Source: Achromobacter insuavis
Lineage (GTDB): Bacteria; Pseudomonadota; Gammaproteobacteria; Burkholderiales; Burkholderiaceae_B
Reading direction: 5' to 3'
Assembly: GCF_902859645.1 (NCBI RefSeq)
Contig: NZ_CADIJR010000001.1
Span: 186,001-250,000 of the forward strand
DNA length: 64,000 nucleotides
Position 1 is the first letter of the stretch. Every line of letters begins with the position of its first letter. Under the pieces are notes generated by a model, which worked only from the letters and a program-made list of their open reading frames with translations, ran no database searches and was not told where the DNA came from. A program made the translations under genes and the position numbers. This document shows, piece after piece, positions 31,938-53,703 of this stretch.

Positions 31938-31997
31938 GCCCGGCCGTCCGAAGGCCGGGCAGCCCCCTTGGGGGGCCAGCTAGCTCACGCAGTGAGC
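31938..31997. repeat. REP-like triple hairpin at the ridA-like 3' end
   Basis: Three adjacent stems: GCCCGGCC/GGCCGGGC, GCCCCC-TT-GGGGGGC and GCTCAC-GCA-GTGAGC. The last one contains the stop codon of the RidA-family gene. The CCCCCTTGGGGG core resembles CCTCCTTGAGGGGGAGG in the element at 37731-37795, so both may belong to one repeat family. Confidence 0.6.
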
Positions 31998-32419
31998 GCG
32001 GCGTGGGGGCGTTTATAGGCCACGCAGTCGATTTCTACTTTCGCATCCACCATCAGCGGCGACTGCACGCAGGCGCGGGCGGGGGGATTTGCGCCGAAGT
32101 ATTCCTTGAAGACCTTGTTGAACGAGGGGAAGTCGCGGGCGTCGTCGAGCCAGACGCCGCAGCGGACGACGTGTTCGGGGCCGTAGCCGGCTTCCTTGAG
32201 GATCGCGAGGACCTGCTGGATGGCCTTGTGGGACTGGGCGACGGTGCCGCCTTCGATGACTTCGCCGTTTTCCATCGGGACCTGGCCCGAGACGTAGAGC
32301 CAGCCGTCGGCGGCGACGGCGCGGGCGAAGGGCATGTGGGAGCCGCCTTGGCCGGTGCCGCCGGCGACGCCGTAGCGGGTGATGCCGTTGTTGTCGGCGG
32401 TGGGGGTGGTGCTGCTCAT
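31985..32419 (-). CDS. RidA family reactive-intermediate deaminase
   Basis: A 144-residue YjgF/YER057c/UK114 protein. The family's active-site arginine region is PPARACVQSPLMVDAKVEIDCVAYKR, with Arg and Glu in the expected places. RidA proteins hydrolyse enamine/imine products such as 2-aminoacrylate released by PLP enzymes. It follows the N-acyl-D-amino-acid deacylase by one base and shares the strand with a PLP deaminase, which fits a role in clearing the enamine product. It is a little longer than RidA itself (128) because of N-terminal residues 1-15. Confidence 0.92.
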   Translation of the reverse strand: MSSTTPTADNNGITRYGVAGGTGQGGSHMPFARAVAADGWLYVSGQVPMENGEVIEGGTVAQSHKAIQQVLAILKEAGYGPEHVVRCGVWLDDARDFPSFNKVFKEYFGANPPARACVQSPLMVDAKVEIDCVAYKRPHAALTA

Positions 32420-32420
32420 G

Positions 32421-33902
32421 TCAGGGCTCCTGGAGGGCGGGGGTGGAGGCGGCGAAGCTGGCGCGCAGGTCGCCGTTGCGGGGCAGCCAGCGGCCGGCGC
32501 GGTCGCCGGTGGGTTGGCCGTGGCGGTAGGACAGGACGCCGTTGACCCAGACGGCCTCGATGCCGGCGGCGGTCTGGACGGGGGCGGCGAAGGTGGCGCG
32601 GTCGATGACGGTGGCGGGGTCGAACAGCACCAGGTCGGCGTGGAAGCCCGTGCGCACCAGGCCGCGTTCGGCCAGGCCGAAGCGGGCGGCGGACAGGCCG
32701 GTCATCTTGTGGACGGCCTCGGGCAGCGGGAACAGGCCGACGTCGCGGCTGTAGTGGCCGAGCACGCGCGGGAAGGCGCCCCACAGGCGCGGGTGCGGCA
32801 TGGGATCGTTGGGCAGGCCGTCGGAGCCGACCATGGTGAGCCGGTTCGACAGCACGCGGCGCACGTCGTCCTCGTGCATGTTGTGGTACACGGCGCCGGC
32901 CGGTTGCAGGCGCTTCGCCGCTTCCAGTAGCGTCACGCCCCAGTCGGCGGCGATGGCGGACAGTTTGCGGCGGGCCTGTTCGGGGTGCGGCACCGACCAG
33001 GTGATGTCGATGTCGAATTCGTCGGTGACCTGCTTGAGGTCGAGCGTGGACGAGCTGGCCGAGTACGGATAGCAGTCGCAGCCCACGTGCTGCATGCGGC
33101 CGGCGTTCTCCAGCTTGAACAGCACTTCCTTGGTGCGGCCCCAGTTGCCGGCGCCGGCGCACTTCAGGTGCGACACCACCACCGGCACGCGGGCGTGCAG
33201 GGCGATGTCGAAGGCTTCCTGCATGGCTTCCAGGATGGCGGCGAATTCCGAGCGCAGGTGGGTGGTGTAGAGCGCGCCGAATTCGTCCAGGACTTCGGCC
33301 AGCAGCTTGACCTCGGCGGTGTCGGCCTCGATCGCCGAGCCGTAGGCCAGGCCGGTGCTCAGGCCGATGGCGCCATGGGCCAGGGCTTCGCGCAGCTGCT
33401 CGCGCATGGCCAGCACCTCGTCGCGCGTGGCACTGCGGTCGAGGCGGTCCATGTGGTTGTTGCGCAGGGCGGTGTGGCCGACCAGCGCGGCCACGTTCAC
33501 GGCGGGATGCGCGGCCTCGATGGCGCGGGTGTAGTCGGCGAAGGTCGGGTAGGCGAAGTCGTCGCGCTGGCCCAGCAGGTTCATCGGGTCGGGCGGCTCG
33601 CCGCGCAGCGAGACCGGCGAGGCGCTGATGCCGCAGTTGCCCACCACCACCGTGGTCACGCCCTGCGACAGCTTGGGCAGCATGCCGGGGGTGCGGATGA
33701 CGTTGGTGTCGTCGTGGGTGTGGACGTCGATGAAGCCGGGCGCGAGCGCCAGGCCGGCGCCGTTGATGATCTGCCCCGCCGGCTGGCCGGACAGGTCGCC
33801 GATCGCCGCGATGCGGCCGCCGGAGAGCGCGACGTCGGCGGTGTATTCGGCGCCGCCCGAGCCGTCGAGCACGCGGACATTGCCGATGAGGGTGTCGTAC
33901 AT
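32421..33902 (-). CDS. N-acyl-D-amino-acid deacylase (D-aminoacylase)
   Basis: A 493-residue zinc amidohydrolase that releases D-amino acids from N-acyl-D-amino acids. The metal site HTHDD is at 61-65, and the D-aminoacylase-specific cysteine is C90 in VGNCGIS. YTTHLRSE and VVSHLKCAGAGNWGR carry further histidine ligands; DGLPNDPMPHPRLWG has the catalytic Asp. Length fits characterised Alcaligenes enzymes (about 480-500). It sits between the RpiR regulator and the RidA-family gene. Whether it prefers acyl-D-Glu, -Asp or neutral substrates cannot be read from the sequence. Confidence 0.92.
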   Translation of the reverse strand: MYDTLIGNVRVLDGSGGAEYTADVALSGGRIAAIGDLSGQPAGQIINGAGLALAPGFIDVHTHDDTNVIRTPGMLPKLSQGVTTVVVGNCGISASPVSLRGEPPDPMNLLGQRDDFAYPTFADYTRAIEAAHPAVNVAALVGHTALRNNHMDRLDRSATRDEVLAMREQLREALAHGAIGLSTGLAYGSAIEADTAEVKLLAEVLDEFGALYTTHLRSEFAAILEAMQEAFDIALHARVPVVVSHLKCAGAGNWGRTKEVLFKLENAGRMQHVGCDCYPYSASSSTLDLKQVTDEFDIDITWSVPHPEQARRKLSAIAADWGVTLLEAAKRLQPAGAVYHNMHEDDVRRVLSNRLTMVGSDGLPNDPMPHPRLWGAFPRVLGHYSRDVGLFPLPEAVHKMTGLSAARFGLAERGLVRTGFHADLVLFDPATVIDRATFAAPVQTAAGIEAVWVNGVLSYRHGQPTGDRAGRWLPRNGDLRASFAASTPALQEP

Positions 33903-33916
33903 CTTGATTTCCAGGT

Positions 33917-34789
33917 TCAGTCGCCCAGCGGCAGCCGGTTGGGGCCGCCGCGGTGTTCGTCCAGCGCCAGCTTGATGCGGCGCAGGCGTTCGCGGTTCTC
34001 TTCTTGGTTCAGCATCGCCAGCTCGGTCGACAGCAGGTCGATCGCCAGCATCATGGCGTAGCGCGAGGCCGAGGGCTTGTAGATGAAGTCGGTTTCGTCG
34101 GTGCGGATCGGCAGCACCACGTCGGCCAGCTTGGCCAGTTCCGAGGTGGCGTCGGTGACGGCGACGATGCGGGCGCGGTACTGCTTGACGATGCGCGCCG
34201 CGCCGACGATTTCGGGCGTCAGGCCCGAGGCCGACAGGATCACCACGGCATCGCGCTCGTCGAGCGTGGCGGCCACCATGCGCAGCAGCACGGCGTCGCT
34301 GTAGACCGCGATCGGATAGCCCAGGCGCACCAGGCGCGATTGCACTTCCTGCGCCAGCACGGCCGAGGCGCCGCCCATGCCGAACACGTAGACCATGCGG
34401 GCGCCGTCGACGATGGCGGCGGCGGCCTCGAACAGCGGCTCGGTGAAGGTCGGCAGGTGGGCGCGCAGCGTGCTTTCGATGTCGGCGTAGATGCGCGCGT
34501 AGAACGTGCTTTCCTCGGCCGGCGTGCCCTGGTCCAGGAAGCGGCTGCCCACGGTGCTGGCCTGCGCCAGCTTCATCTTCAGGTCGCGGGTGTCGTCGCA
34601 GCCCACGGTGCGGGCAAAGCGCGAGATGGTGGCGATGCTGACGCCGGCCTTGGCCGCCAGCTGGTCCACGGTGGCGCTGGCGCTCCAGATGATGTTGTCC
34701 AGGATGGCGTCGGCGACCTTGCGCTCGGTCACGCTCAGGTCGTCCCGGCGGCTGCGTATCTGGAAGACGATGTCGCGGATGATGTTCAT
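33917..34789 (-). CDS. RpiR/MurR-family transcriptional regulator with SIS domain
   Basis: A 290-residue regulator. An N-terminal helix-turn-helix of the RpiR type (residues 1-77; AKAGVSIATISRFARTVGC) is followed by a SIS sugar-isomerase-like sensor (about 125-260; VYVFGMGGASAVLAQEVQSRL, VVILSASGLTPE). RpiR proteins usually sense phosphosugars, amino sugars or muropeptide parts. I start at 34789 (MNIIRD), where homology begins. Its place between transporter and deacylase genes makes it the likely local regulator; dyad sites at 41836-41890 are candidate targets. Confidence 0.9.
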   Translation of the reverse strand: MNIIRDIVFQIRSRRDDLSVTERKVADAILDNIIWSASATVDQLAAKAGVSIATISRFARTVGCDDTRDLKMKLAQASTVGSRFLDQGTPAEESTFYARIYADIESTLRAHLPTFTEPLFEAAAAIVDGARMVYVFGMGGASAVLAQEVQSRLVRLGYPIAVYSDAVLLRMVAATLDERDAVVILSASGLTPEIVGAARIVKQYRARIVAVTDATSELAKLADVVLPIRTDETDFIYKPSASRYAMMLAIDLLSTELAMLNQEENRERLRRIKLALDEHRGGPNRLPLGD

Positions 34790-34820
34790 GTGGTGTTCCT
34801 GGATCGATGCGGGCGGGGCG

Positions 34821-35818
<998 letters not shown>

Positions 35819-35822
<4 letters not shown>

Positions 35823-36826
35823 AGCGGGGTCACCTTGATGCAGCGGGCGCGGTGCTGGTCCTGCACCGCCACCAGTTCGGGCACGTCGCGGCGGCAGCTG
35901 TCGTCGGCCTGCGCGCAGCGCGGCGCGAAGGTGCAGCCGGCCGGCAGCGACAGCACGCTCGGCACGTTGCCCGGGATGGCGCGCAGGCGCTCGCCCGAGG
36001 CCAGCAGCGCCGCGGTCGGCAGACAGGACAGCAGGCCGCGGGTGTAAGGATGGGTGGGCTTTTCGAACAGGTCGTAGACGCCGGCGTCCTCGACCACGCG
36101 GCCGGCGTACATCACCGCCACGCGATGCGCGATCTCGGCCACCACGCCCAGGTTGTGGGTGATGAACAGGATGCTCATGTTCATCTCGGCCTGCAGCCGG
36201 CGCAGCAGGTCCAGGATCTGGGCCTGCACCGTCACGTCCAGCGCGGTGGTGGGTTCGTCGGCGATCAGCACGGCCGGATTGCAGGCCAGCGCCAGGGCGA
36301 TCATGACGCGCTGGCGCATGCCGCCGGACATCTGGTGCGGATACTCGTTGACGCGCCGGTCGGCCGCAGGGATCTCGACGCGGTCGAGCATGTCGCGGGC
36401 GCGTTTCATGGCCGCCGCGTGCGAGCCGCCCTCGTGCTGCAGCACGGCCTCGGCGATCTGGTCGCCCACCGTGTACAGCGGGTTCAGGCTGGTCATCGGC
36501 TCCTGGAAGATCATGGCGATCTCGGCGCCGCGGATGCGGCGCAGCGTGGCCGGCGAGGCGTGGGCCAGGTCGTGTTCCTGGCCGCGGCGGTCGCGGAAAC
36601 GGATCTTGCCCGCTTCGATGCGGCCGGCCGGCTTGGGCAGCAGGCCCATGATGGACAGGCTGGTGACGGACTTGCCGGAGCCGGATTCGCCGACGATGGC
36701 CAGCGTTTCGCCGCGGGCCAGGTCGAAGGTGACGCCGTCGACCGATTTGGCGACGCCGTCGCGGCTGTGGAACCAGGTCTTCAGGCCTTCCACCGACAGC
36801 ACGATGTCTCGGGTGCTTGCGGTCAT
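35819..36826 (-). CDS. Oligopeptide/dipeptide ABC transporter ATP-binding protein (DppD-like)
   Basis: A 335-residue ABC ATPase. Walker A GESGSGKS, signature [15 protein letters not shown], Walker [14 protein letters not shown], and a C-terminal Cys cluster ([15 protein letters not shown]). It pairs with the DppF-like ATPase, whose start overlaps its stop by 4 nt (ATGA). It follows the DppC-like permease by 2 nt. Confidence 0.94.
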
Positions 36827-36828
36827 GA

Positions 36829-37698
36829 TTACAGCTCCTTGCGCAGGCGCGGATCGAGCACGTCGCGCAGGCCGTCGCCGACCAGTTGCAGCGACAGCAC
36901 CGACAGGACGATGGCGATGCCAGGGAAGATCATGATCCAGTCGGCCGAGCCCATGTATTGCTGGCCGGCGTTGATCATGGTGCCCCAGGTGGGGATGTCG
37001 GGCGAGACGCCCACGCCGAGGAACGACAGGCCGGCTTCGGCCAGGATCGCGTAGGCGAAGATGAAGGTGCCCTGCACCAGGATCGGCGACAGCAGGTTGC
37101 GCAGCACGTGCACGGTGACGATGCGCCAGGTCGACACGCCCAGCGCGCGGGCGGCCTCGACGAACGGCAGCTCGCGGATCACCAGGGTCGAGGCGCGCAC
37201 GATGCGGGCCAGGCGCGGCGTGTAGACGATGCCCAGCGCGATCACCACGTTCACCAGCGACGGCCCCAGCGCGGCCACCAGCGAGATCGCCAGCAGGATG
37301 TCGGGGAAGGCCATCATGGCGTCGATCAGGCGCGACACGAACTTGTCGGCCGAGCGGAAGAAGCCGGCGATCAGCCCCAGCGCGATGCCCAGCACGCTGG
37401 ACACGATCACCACCGAGAAGCCGACCAGCAGCGACAGCCGGCCGCCATAGATGACGCGGCTGAACACGTCGCGGCCGAAGTCGTCGGTGCCGAACCAGTG
37501 CACGGCGCCGGGCGCCTTGAGGCGGTTCATGATGGACAGCTTGAACGGGTCGTAGGGGCTGACCCAGGGCGCCAGCAGCGCCGCGGCCACCAGCACGATC
37601 AGCACGATCAGGCTGATCAGCACGGTCTTGCGGGACACCAGCAGGCGCAACACCTGCCAGCGGTCCGCGCCGGCGTTAACGGTAGTTGGATTAGTCAT
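36829..37698 (-). CDS. Dipeptide-type ABC transporter permease (DppC-like)
   Basis: A 289-residue inner-membrane permease with six predicted helices and a BPD_transp_1 domain. Typical parts are [21 protein letters not shown] and the EAA loop [21 protein letters not shown]. The start at 37698 (MTNPTTV) is preferred; an upstream in-frame ATG would run into the REP-like element at 37731-37795. Confidence 0.93.
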
Positions 37699-37730
37699 TT
37701 CGGTCGTTTCGTTCGCAACACTTCCAAGCG

Positions 37731-37795
37731 GGGCCACCGCGGAGCCGGCTTTGCCGGGCCGCCCGCGGCGCCTCCTTGAGGGGGAGGCGCCGAAG
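37731..37795. repeat. REP-like palindromic element between the two permease genes
   Basis: It contains CCGGC-TTT-GCCGG and a 9-bp stem GGCGCCTCC/GGAGGCGCC with a TTGAGG-type loop. It fills most of the 120-nt gap between two genes of one operon. The CTCCTTGAGGGGGAG core resembles the element at 31938-31997. Such repeats can modulate mRNA stability within operons. Confidence 0.6.
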
Positions 37796-37818
37796 GCGCG
37801 TCGAGGGTGGGTTCATCA

Positions 37819-38760
37819 TCAGTAACGGACGCGCGGATCGACCAGCAGGTACAGCAGATCGATGAACAGGTTGATGAGCACGTAGATGGCCGCGATGATC
37901 AGCAGGGCGCCCTGGATGACGGGATAGTCGCGGCGCAGCACGGCCGACACCACCAGGCTGCCCACGCCCGGCAGGCCGAACACGGTCTCGGTGACGACGG
38001 CGCCGCTGATCAGCAGGGCGGTGGTCAGGCCCAGCACCGTCAGGATCGGGATCAGCGCGTTGCGCACGGCGTGCTTCAGGATCACGCGGGTCTCGGTCAG
38101 GCCCTTGGCGCGCGCGGTGCGCACATAGTCGTCGCGCAGCACGTCCAGCATGCTGGCGCGGATGAAGCGGGTGATCAGCGCCGAGTTCACCAGCCCCAGC
38201 ACCACCGCCGGCAGGATCAGGTGCGACACGCGCGTGGCGAACGAGGCGTCCGGGCCGCCATAGCCCGACACCGGCAGCCAGCCCAGCTTGACGGAGAACA
38301 GCTGCATCAGCAGCAGGCCCAGCCAGAAGCTCGGCACGCTGGAGGTGAACATCGAGAACGACAGCACCGACTGGTCCAGCGTGGTGCCGCGCTTGACCGC
38401 CGACAGGATGCCCACCGGCAACGCGATCAGCGTGGCGATGAACAGCGACATCAGCGTCAGCAGCAGGGTCGGCTCGGCGCGGTCGGCCAGCGCCGCCAGC
38501 ACCGGCTTGTTCATGAAGATGGATTGGCCCAGGTCGCCCTGCGCCAGCTTGCCCAGCCATGACACGTATTGCACGGGCAGGGGGCGATCCAGCCCTAGCT
38601 GGTGTTCCAGCGCGGCGATGTCGGCCTGGCTGGCCTGGGGGCCGAGCATCACGGCGGCGGGGTTGCCGGGCGTGACGCGGATGATGACGAACACGATGGT
38701 CGCGACGATGAACATCACGGCCACCAGCCCGACCAGCCGGTTCAAGAGATAACGCAACAC
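37819..38760 (-). CDS. Dipeptide-type ABC transporter permease (DppB-like)
   Basis: A 313-residue permease with six helices. The start MLRYLLNRLVGLVAVMFIVATIVFVIIRVTPGNP is the classic DppB/OppB N-terminus, and the EAA loop reads YVRTARAKGLTETRVILKHAVRNAL. It lies between the substrate-binding protein and the DppC-like permease. Confidence 0.94.
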   Translation of the reverse strand: MLRYLLNRLVGLVAVMFIVATIVFVIIRVTPGNPAAVMLGPQASQADIAALEHQLGLDRPLPVQYVSWLGKLAQGDLGQSIFMNKPVLAALADRAEPTLLLTLMSLFIATLIALPVGILSAVKRGTTLDQSVLSFSMFTSSVPSFWLGLLLMQLFSVKLGWLPVSGYGGPDASFATRVSHLILPAVVLGLVNSALITRFIRASMLDVLRDDYVRTARAKGLTETRVILKHAVRNALIPILTVLGLTTALLISGAVVTETVFGLPGVGSLVVSAVLRRDYPVIQGALLIIAAIYVLINLFIDLLYLLVDPRVRY

Positions 38761-38807
38761 AGTGGCATCCTAAAGATCGGCGCGCCGACGCGGGCGCTGG
38801 GATGGCG

Positions 38808-38836
38808 GCGGGGCAGGCCGGCTCGGCCCGCCCCGC
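38808..38836. repeat. Stable hairpin after the binding-protein gene
   Basis: GCGGGGC/GCCCCGC encloses GGCCG-GCT-CGGCC with one mismatched pair between them. It starts 9 nt after the binding-protein stop and has no T-run. Hairpins in this position are known to protect the 3' end of binding-protein mRNA, raising its level relative to the permease genes. Confidence 0.6.
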
Positions 38837-38844
38837 GGCGCGGC

Positions 38845-40404
38845 TTACTTCGGCGCCTTCCAGGCGTTCCAGAAGAACGGCCACGGTGCCGGCTTGACGC
38901 CTTGCAGCGACGGCGAACGGGCGGCCTGCGCATTGAAGTCGCCGACCTTCACGAACGGCACTTCGTCATACACGGCCTGCTGCACGTCGGCCCAGCGCTT
39001 GACGCGCTCTTCCTGGGTGCGGGCCTGGTTGAAGGCATCCATCACCTGCGCGCGGCGCGGCGTGTCCCACCAGCCCGGCGCGTCCTTGGACGGGAAGTCG
39101 ATCAGCGCGGGCTCGGGCAGGAACACGCTGTGGGTGATGAAGATGTCCCACACGGCCGGATCCTGGCGGCGCTGCGTCAGCGTGGCCCAGTCCACCACCT
39201 GCATGTCCACCGTGAAGCCGGCGGCCTTCAGGTATTCCGCGGCCACCAGCGCCATCTTGTAGTGGAACTCGTACTGCTGGCTGGTCAGGATGCGGATCTT
39301 CTTGTCGGCCACGTTGGCGCTGTCCAGCAGCTTCTTGGCCGCGGCGGCGTCGCCCTTGTTGTAGACCTTGCCGCCCAGCGACGTGGCCCACGGGTAGCCT
39401 TCCGGATAGAGGTCGCCGTTGAGCTTGTAGAAGTCCTTGTTGCCGAAGGCGGCGTACAGCATGTCCTCTTCGTTCAGCGCCAGCTGCACGGCCTGGCGCA
39501 CCGCCAGGTTGGACATGATGCCCTGCTTGGTGTTGAGCACCAGGCGCGGCCAGCCGAAGGGCTTGAGCATCACCGGGTCGGAGCGGCCGCCCTTGAGCTT
39601 GTCGAGCGCTTCCACCGGCAGCGAGTCGACGTAATCGAACTGGCCCGCGGCGGCGGCTTCGGAGCGGGTGTTGGCGTTGCCGACCGGCACGAAGCGGATC
39701 TCGTCCAGGTATTGCTTGCGCGCGCCGCCGTAGCCGTCGGGCTCGCCTTCGCGCTGCTTGTAGCCCTCGAAACGGGTCAGCTGGATGTACTGGTCCGGCA
39801 CGCGCGCCTTGAGCTGGTAGGGGCCGGTGCCGACGATCTCGGTCAGCACCGGGGCAATCTTGCCCTTGGGCATGATCACGGCGGCGGCGTTGTTCATGGC
39901 CAGCAGCGCGGTCAGCGGCGCGTAGGGCTGCTTGAGCGTGATGCGGATGGTGTTGGCGTCGGGGGCCTCGATGTTGGCGATGACCTTGGCGGCCATCTTG
40001 CCGCGCGTGGCGGTCTCGGTCCAGCGCTTGAGCGAGGCCAGCACGTCCGACGAATCCATCTTGGAGCCGTCATGGAAGGTGATGCCCTGGCGCAGCGCGA
40101 TGGTGTAGACCAGGCCGTCCGGCGTCACATCCGGCATCTTGTCGGCCAGCAGCGGCGTCAGGTTCCACTTGGCGTCGAAGGTGTACAGCGTTTCGAAGAA
40201 GTGCTGGGTCAGGATGCCCACCAGGTCGGCGGTGCTGCTCATCGGGTCGAGCGTCGGCGGCTCGCCGATGGTGGCGACGGAAATCGTGCCTCCCTTGACC
40301 GGCGTGGCACAGAGGGCGGGGGTCGACAATGCGGTCAAGCCAATTGCGCCGGCCGCGAGCAGGCTCTTCAGCCCACCGCCTCGCCGGGAGGTACGGAAGT
40401 TCAT
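38845..40404 (-). CDS. Periplasmic peptide-type ABC transporter substrate-binding protein (DppA-like)
   Basis: A 519-residue SBP_bac_5 family protein. The signal peptide spans residues 1-33 (cut near TPALC-ATP or just before). Mature signatures include GGTISVATIGEPPTLDPM, LADKMPDVTPDGLVYTIALRQGITFHDG and the EIVGTGPYQLK segment. The ligand is set by the whole pocket and cannot be read from motifs; dipeptides, acylated amino acids and muropeptides are all possible. It is the first gene of the transporter set, 143 nt downstream of the PLP deaminase gene. Confidence 0.93.
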   Translation of the reverse strand: MNFRTSRRGGGLKSLLAAGAIGLTALSTPALCATPVKGGTISVATIGEPPTLDPMSSTADLVGILTQHFFETLYTFDAKWNLTPLLADKMPDVTPDGLVYTIALRQGITFHDGSKMDSSDVLASLKRWTETATRGKMAAKVIANIEAPDANTIRITLKQPYAPLTALLAMNNAAAVIMPKGKIAPVLTEIVGTGPYQLKARVPDQYIQLTRFEGYKQREGEPDGYGGARKQYLDEIRFVPVGNANTRSEAAAAGQFDYVDSLPVEALDKLKGGRSDPVMLKPFGWPRLVLNTKQGIMSNLAVRQAVQLALNEEDMLYAAFGNKDFYKLNGDLYPEGYPWATSLGGKVYNKGDAAAAKKLLDSANVADKKIRILTSQQYEFHYKMALVAAEYLKAAGFTVDMQVVDWATLTQRRQDPAVWDIFITHSVFLPEPALIDFPSKDAPGWWDTPRRAQVMDAFNQARTQEERVKRWADVQQAVYDEVPFVKVGDFNAQAARSPSLQGVKPAPWPFFWNAWKAPK

Positions 40405-40547
40405 GATTCTCTCTCCAGAGGGTCAAAAACAGGTTGTCGCGTAATTCGGAAAAGGCGCCGGGTGCCCGAGTGCTGTCTTGCCCCCCCGGGACGTGGGGCT
40501 TGTTCGTATCGCAAGGGAGCCGCGCGCGGGGCGCGCGGGTGCGGCGG

Positions 40548-41819
40548 TCAGAAGAAGGTGTCGGCCACGTCGATGACGCGGTACTGCTCGTCCACCAGCA
40601 GCACCTGGCGCCACTTGTCGAACGTCAGGCAGGGGTGGGAGATGTCGAAAGCGATCATGTCGCCGACCTGGATGTCGTCCGCGTCGCCGATCTGCATGAA
40701 GGCGTGCTGGTCCATCATGGCGGTGAGTTTCCAGTGCGCCGGCGCGGCGCCGGGAGCGCCGTCCTGGCCGGGGCGATGGCGCAGCGACGGCGTCGGCAGG
40801 CCCGCATCGAAGGCGGCGTCGCGCTTGCCCAGGGCCACGATGGCGCGGCCCGGCTCCGGCAGCGACTGCACGTAGGCCCAGACCTGCAGCGCGGGCTGCA
40901 GGCCCGGCTCCATCTTGTGGGCCACCGGGTTGTGGGCGTTGATGCGCTCGGCGGCCGAGCGGTAGACGCCGACGTCGTGCGACAGGTAACAGCCCGGACG
41001 CAGCACGATTTCCAGCGGCGCGCCGATGTCCAGTTGCGAGAATTCCTCGGCCACCACGTCGAACCAGGCCGAACCGGCGCCGGAGATCAGGGCGGGGCCG
41101 TGCTTGCGCAGGCGGCCGGCGGTCGCCAGGCCGCGCAGCGCGTCGGTGGCGCGGCGCAGGAAGGCGCGGATCGCGCTTTCCTCCTGCAGCACGCCTTCGT
41201 AGACTTCGATGCCGGCCAGCGCCAGGCCGGGCCAGCGGCCGATTTCCTCGACCACGGCCTGCAATTGCGCGTCGTCGCGCACGCCGGTGCGGCCGCCGTT
41301 CGGGCCCAGTTCGATCAGCACCGGCAGCACCAGGCCCTGCTCGCCGAAATAGCGGCCCAGCTGGGCGGCGTTGGCGGCCGAGTCGACGATGCAGAAATAG
41401 GTGAATGCCGGATCGCGCAGCAGGTTGGCGATCAGCGCCATGTTGGCGCGGCCGACCAGCTGGTTGGCCATCAGCACCCGGCGGATGCCGTGGTTGTAGG
41501 CCGCCACCACCTGCGGCGCCGTGGCCAGGGTGATGCCCCAGGCGCCGTTGTCGATCTGGCGCTGGAACAGCGCCGGGCTCATGGTGGTCTTGCCGTGCGG
41601 CGCCAGCTTGACGCGGTACGCCTCCATGAAGCGCTGCATCCATTGCAGGTTGTGGCGCACGCGGGCCTCGTACAGCACCGCCACCGGCAGGCTGACGTCC
41701 TCGGCCAGCAGGTTCCAGTTCAGCGCCGCCACGTCGGCGTTGGTACAGGAGGCGGGAAACGCGCCCAGGCCCTTGCCGTTGACGTCCAGGGGGGCTGCGG
41801 TGATCGAGGATTGGGGCAT
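40548..41819 (-). CDS. PLP-dependent D-amino-acid deaminase / D-serine dehydratase-like (DSD1 type)
   Basis: A 423-residue fold-type III PLP enzyme. The N-terminal alanine-racemase-like barrel has the Schiff-base lysine K77 in LAPHGKTTMSP. The C-terminal D-serine dehydratase-like domain has the zinc pair H395/C397 (FDISHPC). Relatives dehydrate or deaminate D-serine/D-threonine or cleave D-3-hydroxy amino acids. An in-frame ATG at 41870 exists, but it falls between two operator-like repeats, so 41819 (MPQSS) is preferred. It is the most upstream minus-strand gene of the D-amino-acid block. Confidence 0.87.
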   Translation of the reverse strand: MPQSSITAAPLDVNGKGLGAFPASCTNADVAALNWNLLAEDVSLPVAVLYEARVRHNLQWMQRFMEAYRVKLAPHGKTTMSPALFQRQIDNGAWGITLATAPQVVAAYNHGIRRVLMANQLVGRANMALIANLLRDPAFTYFCIVDSAANAAQLGRYFGEQGLVLPVLIELGPNGGRTGVRDDAQLQAVVEEIGRWPGLALAGIEVYEGVLQEESAIRAFLRRATDALRGLATAGRLRKHGPALISGAGSAWFDVVAEEFSQLDIGAPLEIVLRPGCYLSHDVGVYRSAAERINAHNPVAHKMEPGLQPALQVWAYVQSLPEPGRAIVALGKRDAAFDAGLPTPSLRHRPGQDGAPGAAPAHWKLTAMMDQHAFMQIGDADDIQVGDMIAFDISHPCLTFDKWRQVLLVDEQYRVIDVADTFF

Positions 41820-41835
41820 GGCGGGCGCTCGTGGC

Positions 41836-41890
41836 TGGAAAATATTTACGTCAAATCCGTTTTTTTTCATTATCGTGAAAGAAATTTACA
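41836..41890. promoter_or_regulatory. Operator-like repeats in the deaminase/amidase divergent promoter
   Basis: Two 15-bp sites, TGGAAAATATTTACG (41836) and TGAAAGAAATTTACA (41876), match at 11 of 15 positions and start exactly 40 bp apart, about four helical turns. Each has an imperfect TGxAA/TTTxC dyad. A third dyad, TTTCA-N6-TGAAA (41865-41880), overlaps the second site. The surroundings are AT-rich. This layout suits a dimeric regulator; the RpiR protein at 33917-34789 is the obvious candidate. Confidence 0.45.
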
Positions 41891-42049
41891 AGCGGGAGTT
41901 GGGAGTTACCCGTAGTCGGCGCTTGCCGTGGCGGTCGGCGGCCGTCGCCCGCCAGGCGATCCGGCAGGCCGCTGCCCTCTCGCGGCCATTGGCGCGACAA
42001 TAGGAAATCCGCGGCGCTGCCTGTTTGCCGCCCCACACAAGGAAGAGTC

Positions 42050-42841
42050 ATGCTGAAAGTCGCTTTGGGCCAGTTCGCCGTCAGCCGCGTCTGGGAAGAA
42101 AACGCCCAGGTCTGCGTCGATCTCATGGCGCGCGCCCGCGAGGGCGGCGCCGGCCTGCTGGTGCTGCCCGAGGGCATCCTGGCGCGCGACATCACCGACC
42201 CGCAGATCGTGCTGAAGGCCGCCCAGCCGCTGGACGGCCCCTTCATGACGCGCCTGCTCGAAGCCAGCCGCGGCTCGTCGCTGGCCACCATGATGTGCGT
42301 GCACGTGCCGACCGGCGACGGCCGGGTCTGGAACACCCTGGTCACGCTGCAGGACGGCCGCATCGTGTCGCAGTACCGTAAGCTGCACCTGTACGACGCC
42401 TTCACCATGAAGGAATCCACCAACGTCACGCCCGGCAACGACATTCCGCCGCTGCTGGAGATCGGCGGCCTGAAGGTCGGCCTGATGACCTGCTACGACG
42501 TGCGTTTCCCCGAGCTGGCCCGGCGCCTGGCGCTGGACGGCGCCGACCTGCTGGCGCTGCCGGCGGCCTGGGTGCGCGGTCCGTTGAAGGAAAAACACTG
42601 GGAAGTGCTGGTGACGGCGCGCGCGCTGGAAAACACCTGCTATGTCGCCGCCACCGGCGAGTGCGGCGAACGCAATATCGGCTGCAGCATGGTGGTGGAT
42701 CCGCTGGGCGTGGTCACCGCCCAGGCCGGCGAGGCCCCGGCGCTGGTGTTCGCCGACATCGATCCCGAGCGCCTGGCGCATGCCCGCAAGGTGCTGCCGG
42801 TGCTGGCCAACCGCCGTTTTTCCACGCCGGAACTGGCCTGA
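42050..42841 (+). CDS. Carbon-nitrogen hydrolase (nitrilase family, deaminated-glutathione-amidase-like)
   Basis: A 263-residue nitrilase-superfamily amidase. The catalytic triad is complete: E41 (VLPEGIL), K111 (QYRKLHLYD) and C148 (MTCYDVRFPE). Length and SMVVDPLGVV fit the Nit/YbeM/YafV group that hydrolyses omega-amides of 2-oxo acids or deaminated glutathione. It is divergent from the D-amino-acid deaminase across 230 bp and may share its operators. A keto-acid omega-amidase role downstream of a D-amino-acid deaminase would be consistent, but is inference. Confidence 0.88.
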   Translation: MLKVALGQFAVSRVWEENAQVCVDLMARAREGGAGLLVLPEGILARDITDPQIVLKAAQPLDGPFMTRLLEASRGSSLATMMCVHVPTGDGRVWNTLVTLQDGRIVSQYRKLHLYDAFTMKESTNVTPGNDIPPLLEIGGLKVGLMTCYDVRFPELARRLALDGADLLALPAAWVRGPLKEKHWEVLVTARALENTCYVAATGECGERNIGCSMVVDPLGVVTAQAGEAPALVFADIDPERLAHARKVLPVLANRRFSTPELA

Positions 42842-42976
42842 GGCGCGGGTTTTCCGAGCGGGCGGCGGGCGGGGCCGCCCGCGTCGGCTTCCGGTCCGGT
42901 CGACGGGGGCGCGGGGCGGCCGGACATGTTGTAATACTGGCTTGATTTTCTTGCCGTCTTCCCTCATCTGCTGCCA

Positions 42977-44317
42977 ATGAGCAACGATCTCTTCGCGGCC
43001 GATCCCGCCCATCGGCCCTACGTGCCCCTGGCCGAGCGCCTGCGTCCGCGCACGCTGGCCGACGTCGTCGGCCAGTCGCACCTGCTGGGGCCGGACAAGC
43101 CGCTGCGCGTGGCGTTCGAGTCGGGCCGTCCGCACTCCATGATCTTCTGGGGCCCGCCGGGCGTGGGCAAGACCACGCTGGCGCGCCTCATGGCCGACGG
43201 CTTCGACGCCCAGTTCATCGCCATTTCCGCCGTGCTGGGCGGCGTCAAGGACATCCGCGACGCGGTCACGGTGGCGCAGGTGGCGCAGGGCCAGGGCCGC
43301 CGCACCATCCTGTTCGTCGACGAGGTGCACCGCTTCAACAAGGCGCAGCAGGACGCGTTCCTGCCCTACGTCGAAAGCGGGCTGTTCACCTTCATCGGCG
43401 CGACCACCGAGAACCCTTCGTTCGAGGTCAATTCGGCGCTGCTGTCGCGCGCCCGCGTCTACGTGCTGCAGTCGCTCACGCCTGAAGAGCTGCAGCAACT
43501 GGTCGACCGCGCCATCACCGCGTTCAACGAAGGCCACGACGAAGGCGCCCGCATCCTCATCGACGCCGACGCGCGCGAGCAGCTGGCGGCCTGGGCCGAC
43601 GGCGACGCGCGCCGCCTGATCAGCGCGGTCGAGGTGGTGGCCGAATCGGCCCAGGCCGCCGGCCGCGACACGGTGGACGCGGCCTGGCTGGAGATCTCGC
43701 TGTCGCAGAACCTGCGACGCTTCGACAAGGGCGGCGACGCCTTCTACGACCAGATCAGCGCGCTGCACAAGTCGGTGCGCGGCTCCAATCCCGACGCCGC
43801 GCTGTACTGGTTCTGCCGCATGATCGACGGCGGCGCCGATCCCAAGTACCTGTCGCGCCGGCTGGTGCGCATGGCGGTCGAGGATATCGGCCTGGCCGAC
43901 CCGCGCGCCACCGACCTGGCGGTCAATGGCGCCGACATCTACGAACGACTGGGGTCGCCCGAGGGCGAGCTGGCGCTGGCGCAGGCGGTGGTCTACATGG
44001 CCTGCGCGGCCAAGTCCAACGCCGTCTACAACGCCTACAACCAGGCGCGCAAATTCGCCGCCGAACACGGCAGCGCGCCGGTGCCGATCCACCTGCGCAA
44101 CGCGCCCACCAAGTTGATGAAACAATTGGGCCATGGCAAGGCCTATCGCTATGCCCACGACGAGCCGCATGGCTACGCCGCGGGCGAGCAATATTTCCCC
44201 GATGGGCTCAAGCCTTCCTTCTACCGGCCGACCGATCGCGGCCTGGAGGCTAAAATCCAGCAGAAGTTGGCATTTCTGCGCGAGCTGGACGCGGAAGAAC
44301 GTGCCAAGAAACGGTAA
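42977..44317 (+). CDS. rarA: Replication-associated recombination protein RarA (MgsA)
   Basis: A 446-residue AAA+ ATPase of the clamp-loader-like WRNIP1/RarA family, acting at stalled replication forks. Walker A is GPPGVGKTT, Walker [13 protein letters not shown], and sensor 1 is [21 protein letters not shown]-terminal motifs SDPNAALYW-like ([13 protein letters not shown]) and the tetramerisation region are present. serS follows 42 nt later, as in E. coli. ATG 42977 gives the family length. Confidence 0.95.
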
Positions 44318-45706
<1,389 letters not shown>

Positions 45707-45726
45707 CGCCGATACCGCGCGCAATG

Positions 45727-45756
45727 AAAAACGGAGCCCTCGGGCTCCGTTTTTTA
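45727..45756 (+). terminator. Intrinsic terminator after serS
   Basis: AAAAACGGAGCCC-TCG-GGGCTCCGTTTTTT: a 13-bp stem with a T6 run, 20 nt after the stop. Confidence 0.92.
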
Positions 45757-46000
45757 TTGCCGCCGCGAGGGCGGCACGCTGCTTGCTGATAACGCAAGTC
45801 GGCCACACGGCGGATGGCGGGATAATCCGCCTTATTTATGATCGAGACATAATTCTGTCGTCTCGAGAGATTATCTTCACGACCTGAGTGCTTGATTTTG
45901 ATGTGAGCAATTGTGTATTTTCAATAAAAGGGCCGGATAGTTCGGCACAATACACCTGCGTTCGACACGCATCATTCACTTATATAACAAGGAGTTGTCC

Positions 46001-46249
46001 ATGACTTCAAGAATGATTGGAGATTTTCGTGTGAGATGCTCTGTGGCTCAGGATGACGAGCAGGGCTTTCGGGTGCAGATATGGACCCGCCGCGTAGGCG
46101 GAACCGCACCGGAAAAATGCTGGACCGTGCCGGGACAGGCGCCGTTCGCCAGCTTGCACGAAGCCGAGCAGGAGAGTCGGCAGTTGTTTGAAGAAATCAA
46201 TGGTGTTCGTTTCAACGGTGAACCGGAGTTTGCTCATGCGTCCGCATAA
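46001..46249 (+). CDS. Small soluble protein of unknown function
   Basis: An 82-residue protein with no signal or membrane segment. It contains WTRRVGG and WTVPGQAPFASLHEAEQESRQLFEEI, suggesting a beta sheet followed by a long helix. ATG 46001 has an excellent AAGGAG box 6 nt upstream. The 290-bp AT-rich leader from serS contains a possible promoter (TTGATT 45892, 17-nt spacer, GTATTT 45915) and a GAGAC-N11-GTCTC hairpin near 45844. I recognise no family. Confidence 0.65.
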   Translation: MTSRMIGDFRVRCSVAQDDEQGFRVQIWTRRVGGTAPEKCWTVPGQAPFASLHEAEQESRQLFEEINGVRFNGEPEFAHASA

Positions 46250-46397
46250 TGGCTGGTGGCGGGCCTCCAGCGCCCCGCGCCGCTGGATTGACCTCGTTCA
46301 GGAATCGTCGCGTTGGGCCGCGGGCAAGCCCGCCCCGGCGCCGCAACAACCGCCGGCCGTCGTGGCTGGCAAATCCGTTCAGGTCCCCGCGGCCTGA
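46236..46397 (+). CDS. Possible 53-residue basic peptide overlapping the previous gene
   Basis: An ORF starting at ATG 46236, 14 nt before the stop of the 82-aa gene and in another frame, with a CGGAG box 7 nt upstream. It begins MRPHNGWWRASSAPRRW and is Pro/Ala-rich at the end. The overlap and ribosome-binding site suggest coupling, but no homology supports it, so it may not be real. Confidence 0.35.
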   Translation: MRPHNGWWRASSAPRRWIDLVQESSRWAAGKPAPAPQQPPAVVAGKSVQVPAA

Positions 46398-46432
46398 CCC
46401 GCTTTCCGCGGCGTACCGGAAATTACGCCGCA

Positions 46433-46463
46433 GAAAAAAAAGGCCACTCGAAGGAGTGGCCTT
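46433..46463 (-). terminator. Intrinsic terminator for the PXPV gene
   Basis: On minus, AAAGGCCACTC and its complement form an 11-bp stem with a 4-nt loop followed by eight T residues. It lies about 45 nt past the stop of the minus-strand PXPV gene; the plus strand has a weaker T-run. Confidence 0.85.
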
Positions 46464-46505
46464 TGTCTTTCAGGGCGCCGGCATGACTGGCCCGGCGCGG
46501 AGCGA

Positions 46506-46844
46506 TCAGCGGTGCCAGCCGCCGCGGCCGTGGTAGTAGCCCGGGCCGGGGCCGCGCCAGTAGCCGCCATGGTGGCCCCAGTAGCCGCCGCCGCGGATGT
46601 AGACCGGCGCCGGGTACACCACCGGGGGCGCGACGTACACGGGCGCCGGGCGGTAGTAGACCGGGGGCGGGGGCGCATAGACGGGCGCCGGCGCCACGTA
46701 GACGGGCGCGGGCGCCGCATAGACCGGCGCCGGGTACACGACCCCGGGGACGCCGATCGAGATGCCGACGTCGACGCGGGCCAACGCGACGCTGGAGATC
46801 AGCAGGCCGGCGACACCGGCCCCAGCGATTAGCCATTTTTTCAT
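46506..46844 (-). CDS. Exported PXPV-repeat protein
   Basis: A 112-residue secreted protein. A signal peptide (MKKWLIAGAGVAGLLISSVALA) is followed by about ten APVY/PPVVY-type repeats between residues 36 and 82, then a Gly/Tyr/His/Trp-rich tail ending GRGGWHR. It fits the PXPV repeat family known from Bordetella and Burkholderia. Function is not established; the extended Pro-Val repeats suggest a periplasmic or surface structural role. Start at 46844 by the signal peptide. Confidence 0.85.
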   Translation of the reverse strand: MKKWLIAGAGVAGLLISSVALARVDVGISIGVPGVVYPAPVYAAPAPVYVAPAPVYAPPPPVYYRPAPVYVAPPVVYPAPVYIRGGGYWGHHGGYWRGPGPGYYHGRGGWHR

Positions 46845-47193
46845 GTTGCACCTGCCTACTGCGTTATGCAGCAAAGTTGAGTATTCCGTTGAGGCTATTT
46901 TCGGTCTTTTCGGATCGGCGTGGGTAAATGACCGTCCCTCAATAGCGACAATCCGCAACGGTTGCGGATGCGTTGCGGGCCCCCATGCTGCGGCGCGGCA
47001 GGCGGATTCCACTCTGGTAAACCCTCGGCTGAAATCGACTGAAATAAGGTGGAATGCGGTGAAGTACGGCGGCCAGGTTACAGCTGCTCACCATCGCCGC
47101 CGCCAAGTTCCCTGCAGGCAACACCGGTACGCCTGCGCCAGGCGGCCAATGCGCCAGCCACGCCGCCTGCGGGCTGTCCAGCGTCGACGCTAC
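46845..47193. other. Intergenic region without a recognised gene
   Basis: 349 bp. The only clear structure is the dyad ATCCGCAAC-G-GTTGCGGAT at 46951-46969, with perfect 9-bp arms, 107 bp before the PXPV start. Reading frames through the region have no ribosome-binding site or family resemblance. Confidence 0.5.
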
Positions 47194-47697
47194 CTAGTTT
47201 TCGTCCGGTTGCTGACAGCGGAATTCGACCACCCAGACCCACGGATTGGCGGCCCAGGCGTGCGCGCCGTAGCGCTCGCACCAGGTCAAGGCAAACGCTG
47301 TTTGCAAGGGCACGCCTGGCAACAGCGCCGAGGCGTGATAAAGCGCTTGTGTGCCTTCGGCGCGCGCGTCGGCGTCCGACAGCTTTTGCAGGCGCTGGAT
47401 GCGCACGCCGACGATGACCGCGTTGGCAAAAGGCTTGCCGGACTCGTCTTCGAGGGTGATGCTGTCTCCGGATTTACCATAGGGGCAACTGACCCAGGGA
47501 GAGGTCTTGCGCATTTCGCTCGATCCTTCCCGGACCGGACCCATGGCGACCCACTTGCCCGAGTCCGCAGCGTCGGCGTACCAGGCGGTCGTCGGTTTGG
47601 AGGGCTGCGGCTTGACGATGCGGCGGGTCTGCACCTTGGCGCCATCCAGGATGGCTTGCTTGAGCGGCTCGCTGAATTGGAGTGCCTGCCTTTTCAT
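47194..47697 (-). CDS. ASCH-type domain protein of phage character
   Basis: A 167-residue protein resembling the phage-borne ASCH-like proteins that begin with a short Phe-Ser/Pro segment followed by LLDGRKTQTRRIVKPQP; here the segment is ILDGAKVQTRRIVKPQP at residues 18-34. The C-terminal NPWVWVVEF is equally typical. ASCH domains resemble RNA-binding PUA folds; their phage role is unknown. It stands alone, without other phage genes, so it is probably a prophage remnant or a domesticated gene. Start 47697 is chosen by homology to the family N-terminus. Confidence 0.8.
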   Translation of the reverse strand: MKRQALQFSEPLKQAILDGAKVQTRRIVKPQPSKPTTAWYADAADSGKWVAMGPVREGSSEMRKTSPWVSCPYGKSGDSITLEDESGKPFANAVIVGVRIQRLQKLSDADARAEGTQALYHASALLPGVPLQTAFALTWCERYGAHAWAANPWVWVVEFRCQQPDEN

Positions 47698-47851
47698 ACC
47701 TGTGTTGTTCCCCTCGCGATCGACGCTTGCATACCCAAGGTTCTGCGGCCGAGTCGACGCGTGCCAACATGGCGGGCTCCGGAAGCCTCGCATGGAACAG
47801 TATGACGCGTCGCTGGCGCCATGTCAGGCAAAGGGTTACTTGTGTGTCTTT

Positions 47852-47881
47852 TTGAATACGTCGCAAGGATGTTTGTATACT
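47852..47881 (+). promoter_or_regulatory. Sigma-70 promoter giving a possibly leaderless mRNA
   Basis: TTGAAT (47852-47857), an 18-bp spacer and TATACT (47876-47881). The expected transcription start, about 7 nt after the -10 box, falls on or next to the ATG at 47888, and no Shine-Dalgarno sequence precedes that ATG. Confidence 0.55.
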
Positions 47882-47887
47882 CGACGC

Positions 47888-48088
47888 ATGAATACTGACC
47901 TGCACGATCTCAAGCCCGGTTACTACTGGTACACCATGGCCAATGACCCGCTGGCCGTCATCCATATCCACGACGACGGTGGCGCCACGTTGATGGGCAC
48001 CGACTATCGCCTGGGCGCCGAAGGCGTGGCGGACATGATCCGCCAGGGCCAGCGCTTCTTCTGGATCGAACCGCCCCAGCAAGGCTGA
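47888..48088 (+). CDS. 66-residue protein of unknown function
   Basis: A small soluble protein beginning MNTDLHDLKPGYYWYTM. Aromatic residues cluster at both ends (GYYWYTM, RFFWIEP), with a predicted beta-rich core (LAVIHIHDDGGATLMGTDY). I recognise no family. Similar short Trp/Tyr-rich proteins occur in prophage regions, and its neighbour is a phage-type ASCH gene. No ribosome-binding site is visible; the promoter at 47852-47881 predicts a leaderless transcript. Confidence 0.6.
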   Translation: MNTDLHDLKPGYYWYTMANDPLAVIHIHDDGGATLMGTDYRLGAEGVADMIRQGQRFFWIEPPQQG

Positions 48089-48126
48089 ACGGACGCCGCC
48101 GCGTGCCGGCGGCGCCGGATACCTCC

Positions 48127-49326
48127 ATGACCGACATGCTGTTAAACAACGTTCGCCTGCCCGATGGCGCGGCGGTCGACGTGCTGATTTCTGGCGACCG
48201 TATCGCCGGCATCGGCCCCAACCTGCAGGCGCCGCCCGATGCGACGCGCGAGCAGGGCGGCGGCGCGCTGCTGCTGCCCGGCCTGGTGGAAGGCCACACC
48301 CATCTGGACAAGACCACCTGGGATTCGCCGTGGTATGTGAACCAGGTGGGACCGGCGCTGACCGACCGCATCGACAACGAACGGGCCTGGCGCGCCGCCA
48401 GCGGCCATGACGCGGCCAGCCATGCGCGCGCGCTGGCGCTGGCCTTCCTGCGCGAGGGCGCCACCCGCATCCGCAGCCACGTCGATGTCGACACCGACGC
48501 CGGCCTGCGCCATCTGGACGGCGTGCACGCCACCCGCGAGGCCCTGGCCGGCCTGGTCGAGATCCAGACCGTGGCGTTTCCGCAGTCGGGCCTGCTGGTT
48601 CGGCCCGGCACCGCCGCCTTGCTGGATGCGGGCCTGGCCGCGGGCGCCGACGTGCTGGGCGGACTGGACCCCTGTGCCATCGACCGCGACCCGGCGCAAT
48701 CGCTGGACGTGCTGTTCGGGCTGGCGGAAAAGCATGGCAAACCCCTCGATATCCACCTGCACGAGCCGGGCGACCTGGGCGCCTTCTCGCTCGACCTGAT
48801 CCTGGACCGCGTGCAGGCGCTGGACATGCGCGGCCGCGTGGTCGTCAGCCACGCCTTCTGCCTGGGCGGCGTTGACGCCAAGCGGCTGGACGGCCTGCTC
48901 AAGCGCCTGGCCGCGCTGGATGTGGCGCTGCTGACCACGGCGCCGCCGTCGCGTCCTGTGCCGGCGCTGCGCGCCTGTCGCGAGGCCGGCGTGACGCTGT
49001 TCGGCGGCAACGACGGCATTCGCGATACCTGGACGCCTTACGGCAGCCCCGACATGCTGGCGCGCGCCATGATGATCGGCCTGCGCAACGACCTGCGCCG
49101 CGATGACGAGATCGGCTGGGCCTTCGACTGCGTCAGCGCCGCCGCGGCGCGCGCCTGTGGCTTCGCGGACTACGGGCTGGCGCCTGGCGCCCGCGCCGAC
49201 CTGGTGCTGGTGGCGGCCAGCGGCGTGGCCGAAGCCGTGGCGCAGCGCGCGCCGCGTCGCCTGGTGATCTCTGGCGGCAAGGTGGTGGCGCGCAACGGCC
49301 AACTGAGGGCCGACCTGGCGGCATAA
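48127..49326 (+). CDS. Cytosine-deaminase-like amidohydrolase
   Basis: A 399-residue metal-dependent hydrolase of the cytosine deaminase/N-isopropylammelide group. Metal ligands are H57/H59 (VEGHTHLDKT), a His in DIHLHEPGD with the catalytic Glu, VVSHAFCLG, and the Asp of GGNDGIRDTW. CodA-like enzymes deaminate cytosine, creatinine or other cyclic amidines and amides; the substrate here is unproven. It is upstream of a LysR/enolase/DapA-like/Bug cluster and may feed it. ATG 48127 begins the conserved N-terminus. Confidence 0.85.
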   Translation: MTDMLLNNVRLPDGAAVDVLISGDRIAGIGPNLQAPPDATREQGGGALLLPGLVEGHTHLDKTTWDSPWYVNQVGPALTDRIDNERAWRAASGHDAASHARALALAFLREGATRIRSHVDVDTDAGLRHLDGVHATREALAGLVEIQTVAFPQSGLLVRPGTAALLDAGLAAGADVLGGLDPCAIDRDPAQSLDVLFGLAEKHGKPLDIHLHEPGDLGAFSLDLILDRVQALDMRGRVVVSHAFCLGGVDAKRLDGLLKRLAALDVALLTTAPPSRPVPALRACREAGVTLFGGNDGIRDTWTPYGSPDMLARAMMIGLRNDLRRDDEIGWAFDCVSAAAARACGFADYGLAPGARADLVLVAASGVAEAVAQRAPRRLVISGGKVVARNGQLRADLAA

Positions 49327-49367
49327 GGCGCGGCGGCCCCTGGCCGCATGCATGCCGCGCGGGCCGG

Positions 49368-50243: not shown

Positions 50244-50270
50244 CGTCTGGCGCCCTGGGAAGATTTTTTT

Positions 50271-50289
50271 TCCATATTCTAAATATGGA
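50271..50289. promoter_or_regulatory. LysR-type dyad operator
   Basis: TCCATATT-CTA-AATATGGA has perfect 8-bp arms and a 3-bp centre and fits the T-N11-A rule for LysR sites. It is 27 bp from the lysR start and 112 bp before the enolase GTG. It probably mediates autoregulation and activation of the divergent genes. Confidence 0.7.
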
Positions 50290-50401
50290 TCAAGATAATT
50301 GTTTGTTTCTTTGGCGGCGGCAAGAATGCGCTTGAGCGTTGCGCCGGCGCAAGGCGCGCCGGCAGCGCAACCCGCACTATTCCCGTTATCAGGAGCCAGC
50401 C

Positions 50402-51529: not shown

Positions 51530-51542
51530 CAGGAGAGTCTTC

Positions 51543-52451: not shown

Positions 52452-52553
52452 CCGCGTCAGCAGGACCCGCAGGACGCCGCGGCCCAGCCGGCCGCGGCGG
52501 GCAAGGCTTACCAACAGTCGCCGGGCATGGACCCGGCGCGCGAGGAGACAACC

Positions 52554-53534: not shown

Positions 53535-53573
53535 GGCGGGATTAGGGGAAAATACCGCGGCAAGCGTGCAAAG

Positions 53574-53606: not shown

Positions 53607-53611
53607 GAATA

Positions 53612-53703
<92 letters not shown>

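Follow-up and report, generated by a model that had tools for sequence, protein, structure and literature searches.

Nine nearly contiguous genes on the minus strand of a 64-kb stretch of Achromobacter insuavis DNA (hereafter the window, part of contig C1 of a 6.8-Mb genome) most likely form an operon that takes up and degrades N-acetyl-D-glucosaminate (GlcNAc1A), or a short oxidized chito-oligomer carrying this acid. The run extends from 41870 to 31985 and consists of a deaminase gene (ongC), five genes for an ATP-binding cassette (ABC) importer, and genes for a regulator (ongR), a putative deacetylase (ongB) and a RidA-family protein (ongD). The pathway itself is known; what is new is the importer and its position, a candidate operator and the host range. 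No description of an ABC-importer version was found in the GlcNAc1A literature searched: the term 'ABC transporter' does not occur in the available text of PMC9537276 and PMC12017989, an ABC-type transporter for (GlcNAc)2 is mentioned in PMC11653859, and Achromobacter is named once in PMC12017989, for D-aminoacylases, and not named in the available text of PMC11653859.

The reference system is the ongCRBD operon of Pseudoalteromonas prydzensis ACAM 620, which encodes a pyridoxal-phosphate (PLP) deaminase converting D-glucosaminate to 2-keto-3-deoxygluconate (KDG), an RpiR repressor, a GlcNAc1A deacetylase and a RidA protein (PMC9537276). Within the eight-gene ong cluster, growth on GlcNAc1A was lost in all mutants but those of ongOT-1 and ongR, and the RidA gene ongD is reported as essential in Pseudoalteromonas, with its role left unexplained in the available parts of that paper (PMC9537276). 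For comparison we used the cluster of Pseudoalteromonas sp. CF6-2, a strain whose record accession comes from the data list of PMC9537276; its genes run TonB receptor, deaminase, RpiR regulator, D-aminoacylase, RidA, sodium symporter, sugar kinase and GH20. The window proteins are 46% (OngC), 44% (OngR), 55% (OngB) and 60% (OngD) identical to their CF6-2 counterparts, and 45, 44, 65 and 62% identical, respectively, to those of an ong-type locus of Klebsiella. Their order, C-R-B-D, is that of Pseudoalteromonas, save that the ABC importer is placed between C and R. Judged by identity and order, the four core genes are ongCRBD of the oxidized-chitin pathway. The Klebsiella locus (L162), on K. pneumoniae plasmid pKLP00155_3 (record positions 40028-59455), also has sodium symporter, kinase and aldolase genes.

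The deacetylase bears on which N-acyl substrate is used. The window ongB (32421..33902, minus strand; Pfam Amidohydro_3) encodes a putative GlcNAc1A deacetylase with the D-aminoacylase fold, whose best solved structure is 9g5m (668.6 bits), titled just 'amidohydrolase family protein', followed by PpOngB (9kb1, 569.2 bits), a D-aminoacylase (1m7j, 469.5 bits) and an N-acyl-D-Glu deacylase (3gip, 384 bits). PpOngB (PDB 9KB1/9KB3) is active on GlcNAc1A and, in the available parts of PMC12017989, on no N-acetyl-D-amino acid tested; it contacts the sugar hydroxyls through Ser290, Ser292, Glu226 and Gln298, and in D-aminoacylases position 292 is Thr and position 298 is Leu or Arg (PMC12017989). All four sugar contacts are present in the window OngB (S283, S285, E219 and Q291, in the same order), the alignment to PpOngB being ungapped at S285 and Q291, and all compared contacts to the C3-C6 hydroxyls are retained. 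Identity extends to 19 of the 20 metal, catalytic and cavity positions; the subtype V metal site Cys97/His222/His252, the catalytic Asp368 and His68/His70 are all unchanged, and so are two small cavity residues, Ala193 and Ala256, while the third, Gly348 of PpOngB, is the lone difference, being Asn in the window OngB as in 9g5m.

The same signature divides the wider family. Ser292 occurs in 107 of 125 aligned rows (a table that holds several genomes twice and has 3gip outside it), each time together with Gln298, and these rows are, besides 9g5m (65% identical to the window enzyme) and PpOngB (55%), the ones with at least 66% identity to it. The remaining 18 rows, at most 54% identical, have Thr292 and include AfDam and two paralogs from the same genome (C38 and C35). 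A tree of 68 of the 125 rows, in which PpOngB and 9g5m form long branches, places both with the window OngB in one clade of 55 rows (support 100/100) and pairs AfDam with the C38 paralog (100/100). By residue signature and clade, the window OngB most likely belongs with the PpOngB-type GlcNAc1A deacetylases. Among the best 80 of 487 matches, whose genera do not amount to a census, the closest named relative of the window ongB is that of Achromobacter dolens LMG 26840 (98% identical). The AfDam-like paralog (L119, G000:C38:27000-39000) adjoins its own five-gene Opp/Dpp importer, and this cluster is likely the organism's true N-acyl-D-amino-acid cluster. Two further loci, L125 (G061) and L126 (G013), hold distant ongC-, ongR- and ongB-like genes (43-44, 29 and 49-52% identical) with a Thr292 deacylase, perhaps pointing to a related pathway that uses a different N-acyl substrate.

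The predicted partner of this enzyme, the product of ongC (40548..41870, minus strand; Pfam D-ser_dehydrat and Ala_racemase_N), is a DSD1-type fold-III PLP deaminase that we propose to be a D-glucosaminate ammonia-lyase. In a tree of 42 rows covering 38 of 40 chosen loci, with the marine and Klebsiella OngC as long branches, it falls among its Alcaligenaceae relatives. Its match among solved structures, a 'D-serine deaminase' (PDB 3gwq), is up to 95% identical to Paraburkholderia ong-type ongC genes and may be a D-glucosaminate deaminase solved under another name.

The importer sets this operon apart from the marine one. Its five genes, all on the minus strand, make up a complete Opp/Dpp set: a family-5 solute-binding protein (38845..40404; SBP_bac_5, 233.4 bits), a DppB/OppB-type permease (37819..38760; BPD_transp_1 with an N-terminal domain), a DppC/OppC-type permease (36829..37737; BPD_transp_1 and OppC_N), and ATPases of the DppD (35819..36826) and DppF (34821..35822) types, both with ABC_tran and oligo_HPY. 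Among Chitinibacteraceae, Andreprevotia and Jeongeupia have the arrangement ongC-gntP-ongR-ongB-ongD-kinase, with a gntP permease that passes TIGR00791; that permease's slot is filled by the five importer genes in all 15 named Achromobacter/Bordetella loci, where the locus lies between rarA and lolA-ftsK. All eight Herbaspirillum/Collimonas loci have a PfkB kinase next to ongC, with a gntP-type permease following ongD, and the single Duganella locus has a gntP-type permease with no such kinase called; gene calls in these relatives came from a codon-usage script, so some genes are missed or overlong. The kinase and permease set of Herbaspirillum and Collimonas recurs in Cupriavidus metallidurans. 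On this comparison of loci, a transporter has been swapped in place within a conserved operon, an ABC importer standing where relatives have a gluconate-type permease or a sodium symporter. From its position in the operon we infer that the importer carries the sugar acid. Its binding protein gives mixed matches to solved structures (8vdx, AgaA, YliB, and nickel, opine, peptide and heme binders), and elsewhere in the genome there are 24 further long matches to its DppB-type permease, the two closest both 49% identical. Pseudomonas loci (L034-L088) carry gntP-ongR-ongB groups in which the window OngC and OngD had no match within the fetched flanks; in three of these loci (L065, L079 and L087) ongR was not found either.

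These components suggest a route in which the Opp/Dpp-type importer would move the acid into the cytoplasm, OngB would remove acetate, an activity shown elsewhere for its family, and OngC would eliminate water and ammonia from D-glucosaminate to give KDG, as shown for OngC elsewhere. The enamine or imine released would, by analogy, be hydrolyzed by OngD (31985..32419, minus strand; Pfam Ribonuc_L-PSP), and a PfkB kinase and KDPG-type aldolase, going by their families, would complete the conversion to pyruvate and glyceraldehyde-3-phosphate. The Chitinibacteraceae kinases are closest to the KDG kinase model NF052444 (384.9 and 349.6 against a cut-off of 400), and a KDG kinase model is also the best one for the Herbaspirillum-type kinase, though at a score well short of its threshold (185.7 against 400). 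A KDG-type kinase beside the core fits the prediction of a sugar-acid route, not that of a D-Ser/D-Thr route. In the Achromobacter genome itself, a KDPG/KHG-type aldolase gene (PF01081) and an adjoining PfkB kinase gene occupy C1:65845-67405, some 150 kb away from the operon and behind an open reading frame (ORF) read as an IclR-type regulator, the kinase being 53% identical to that of Herbaspirillum. With this pair, the organism can probably convert KDG to pyruvate and glyceraldehyde-3-phosphate.

Control of the operon would fall to OngR (33917..34789, minus strand; Pfam HTH_6 and SIS), an RpiR/SIS regulator whose matches among solved structures are two RpiR-family regulators (112.0 and 111.3 bits). 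Operon repression by OngR has been shown in Pseudoalteromonas (PMC9537276). In the window, OngR would act at a palindrome ahead of ongC and keep the operon repressed until some product is present, perhaps a sugar phosphate; both the site and the effector are proposed here. The palindrome TGTAAATTTCTTTCA (41876..41890), about 57 bp ahead of the likely ongC start, is the likely OngR operator. A pattern of the form TG(A/T)AA-N4-6-TT(A/T)CA was found between -220 and +80 of ongC in 23 of the 96 loci with an ongC match, a figure in which the window's own site refetched accounts for two and one locus is counted twice. All 15 named Achromobacter/Bordetella loci carry it ahead of ongC, against a mean over all loci of 0.005 per 300 bases, these 15 being closely related and their agreement not independent; it is missing from the other 73, including Paraburkholderia, most gammaproteobacterial loci, Andreprevotia and Jeongeupia. 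A matrix was built from seven of the sites. In three genomes that contributed none of these, Andreprevotia, Jeongeupia and G238, its best match in the whole locus lies before ongC (TGAAAATAATTTTCT and similar). The same matrix gives weak matches only in Pseudomonas and several others, and the best Pseudoalteromonas palindromes are unlike the window site in sequence. The pattern TGWAAWTWHYTTTCA has a single match genome-wide, at the site before ongC, and the reversed control has none, which fits a local, single-site repressor.

The core enzyme is a near-constant feature of the genus. An OngB match at E no greater than 1e-200 is present in 42 of 43 Achromobacter genomes, the missing one being 57% complete, and in 62 of 268 genomes of the family, where it occurs in 5 of 43 genera; these counts rest on the OngB match, with the importer outside the count. 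Achromobacter piechaudii has been named as having the complete pathway (PMC9537276).

Several observations weigh against an oxidized-chitin pathway at this locus. The window locus lacks the marine cluster's kinase (KdgK), sodium symporter, GH20 enzyme (OngA) and TonB receptor, and the KDG-kinase models all score below their cut-offs. Importers of this family commonly carry peptide or nickel annotations, and the second of the two 49% identical permeases lies beside the AfDam-like paralog on C38. Glu226, Ser291 and in part Ser290 are common to D-aminoacylases, only 292 and 298 discriminating sharply, so the argument is carried by these two positions; of the two, 292 is weighted more because the AfDam residue at 298 is Arg in our sequence alignment and Leu in the structural comparison of PMC12017989. 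The supply of substrate raises a further difficulty. Neither a lytic polysaccharide monooxygenase (LPMO), in a search limited to family AA10, nor a GH18 chitinase was found in the host genome (0/1 for each), and AA10 LPMO is present in 0/15 named ABC-type genomes and 0/8 of Herbaspirillum/Collimonas, so the substrate must come from outside. Both Chitinibacteraceae genomes (2/2) do have an AA10 LPMO, and G098, a member of the window's family, is an exception among ABC-type genomes in having one. Across 300 genomes sampled from the order, with ong-type defined as an OngB match of at least 66% identity and the two sets of matches joined by genome handle, AA10 LPMO is present in 8 of 19 ong-type genomes versus 14 of 281 others (Fisher p = 1e-5), and by genus in 6 of 13 versus 8 of 121 (p = 5e-4), an association that is partly kinship because five of the eight genomes with both come from one family (f4). 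Most likely, going by this gene content, the host scavenges GlcNAc1A made by others. We propose more tentatively, and with rather less than even confidence, that Achromobacter (almost universally) and some Bordetella run an ABC-importer oxidized-chitin pathway mostly without the oxidizing enzyme, as scavengers of acid released by the LPMOs of fungi or other bacteria.

Other explanations start from the same genes. The sequence-only reading took the locus to serve N-acyl-D-amino acids: the importer would carry these or peptides, D-Ser and D-Thr would be freed and deaminated by the PLP enzyme, and RidA would clear 2-aminoacrylate. The fold and family name of the deacylase agree with this, as does the Opp/Dpp family of the importer; the marine OngC also acts on D-Ser and D-Thr (PMC9537276), a point that tells against a strict sugar-acid role, and the AfDam-like paralog in the same genome adjoins a similar importer. 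We nonetheless consider it improbable: the deacylase shares Ser292, Gln298 and its clade with GlcNAc1A deacetylases, assayed members of the OngB family are, in the available parts of PMC12017989, without action on N-acetyl-D-amino acids, KDG-kinase-like genes accompany the core in relatives, and the genome has separate D-aminoacylase-like genes. What gives way is thus the substrate class, while the proposed order of chemistry (import, deacylation, deamination and handling of the enamine by a dedicated RidA) holds, the core matching ongCRBD. The same reading's guess at amino sugars was a good one; peptidoglycan fragments as the source have been dropped, nothing having been found for them beyond the RpiR family name.

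Two other possibilities leave the enzymes' identity largely intact. That they act on another N-acetylated 2-amino-2-deoxy sugar acid, or that the importer takes an oxidized disaccharide, is unlikely, if less so than the D-amino-acid proposal. The importer family carries larger solutes, the closest structures to the binding protein include opine binders, and the host is without AA10 LPMO; against another sugar acid, however, stand the fully kept C3-C6 hydroxyl contacts of PpOngB, and a disaccharide would need a cytoplasmic hexosaminidase, of which there is none in the locus (no search for GH20 was made in the genome). The operon could also be a composite, its core using GlcNAc1A brought in by another transporter and its importer carrying unrelated peptides or metals. 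The ligand of an importer from so large a family, with its 24 other long permease matches in the genome, is not readable from sequence, yet the importer occupies the slot of the gluconate-type permease of Chitinibacteraceae, the order is kept in 15/15 named loci, and the unit holds no other transporter gene; a composite seems to us as improbable as a D-amino-acid locus. Uptake and degradation of GlcNAc1A, or of a short oligomer bearing it, remains the explanation that we favor.

The gene inventory on which both interpretations rest, from 31985 to 42841, held up on inspection: the nine genes of the minus strand and their divergent plus-strand neighbor are all intact ORFs, and each of the ten has its expected Pfam domain above the gathering cut-off. 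The longest internal gap is 143 bp, ongB and ongD are spaced by 1 bp, and the two ATPase genes overlap by 4 bp. From the ORFs, corrected starts are probably 34789 for the RpiR gene, 41819 for the PLP-enzyme gene and 37698 for the second permease gene. Conservation of the set in relatives, which had been suggested as a check, was borne out, the nine-gene order being retained in 15 of 15 named Achromobacter/Bordetella loci spanning the region; a 16th, L010, lies on a 4.1-kb contig too short to judge and is outside the count. Among the matches listed, none of the nine genes has an NCBIfam equivalog above cut-off, examples being the RidA model TIGR00004 (89.3 bits against 106.25) and HexR (150.2 against 296). 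The divergent gene (42050..42841, plus strand; CN_hydrolase), a nitrilase-family gene once counted as a locus member, scores 456.5 bits against a cut-off of 355 for NF033621, a deaminated-glutathione amidase of glutathione repair. Because it belongs to that family and adjoins ongC in only 9 of the 15 named loci, we place it outside the unit and reject it as part of the route. A promoter and terminator scan was uninformative, with 1 promoter-like site where 0.8 would be expected by chance and 6 terminator-like ones against an expectation of 4.6 (standard deviation 2.2). A further Amidohydro_3 match lies in the window at 48262-49290 (E 7e-26).

In public records these genes go by 'D-aminoacylase', 'amino acid deaminase' or 'D-serine deaminase'. 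Should our interpretation be correct, some of the genes so labeled in Achromobacter, Bordetella, Paraburkholderia, Herbaspirillum and Pseudomonas would be reassigned to oxidized-chitin catabolism, and a pathway of marine gammaproteobacteria would extend to soil and host-associated Betaproteobacteria, including ones without AA10 LPMO or GH18. It would also be a clear example of one transporter replacing another within a conserved operon, would provide an OngR operator open to testing, and would suggest a definite function to examine for RidA, essential yet unexplained in PMC9537276.

Set against known systems, the window locus resembles the ong cluster of P. prydzensis and CF6-2 in the order and strand of C-R-B-D, in a repressor-type RpiR protein and in having RidA as a fixed member, and differs in that a five-gene ABC importer between C and R stands in place of the sodium symporter OngIT. 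With the Andreprevotia and Jeongeupia loci it shares the core, its order and the transporter slot; those loci differ in having a single gluconate-type permease, a kinase gene at the end of the unit and an AA10 LPMO in both genomes. The window OngB is alike to PpOngB-type deacetylases and 9g5m in metal, catalytic and sugar-contact residues and joins them in one clade, differing from PpOngB in having, with 9g5m, Asn in place of Gly at 348. The D-aminoacylases AfDam/AxDam and the N-acyl-D-glutamate deacylase BbDam share its fold, metal site, catalytic Asp, and carboxylate and acetamide contacts, whereas they have Thr292 and another residue at 298 (PMC12017989), a difference that our alignment also finds for AfDam and for both paralogs in the same genome.

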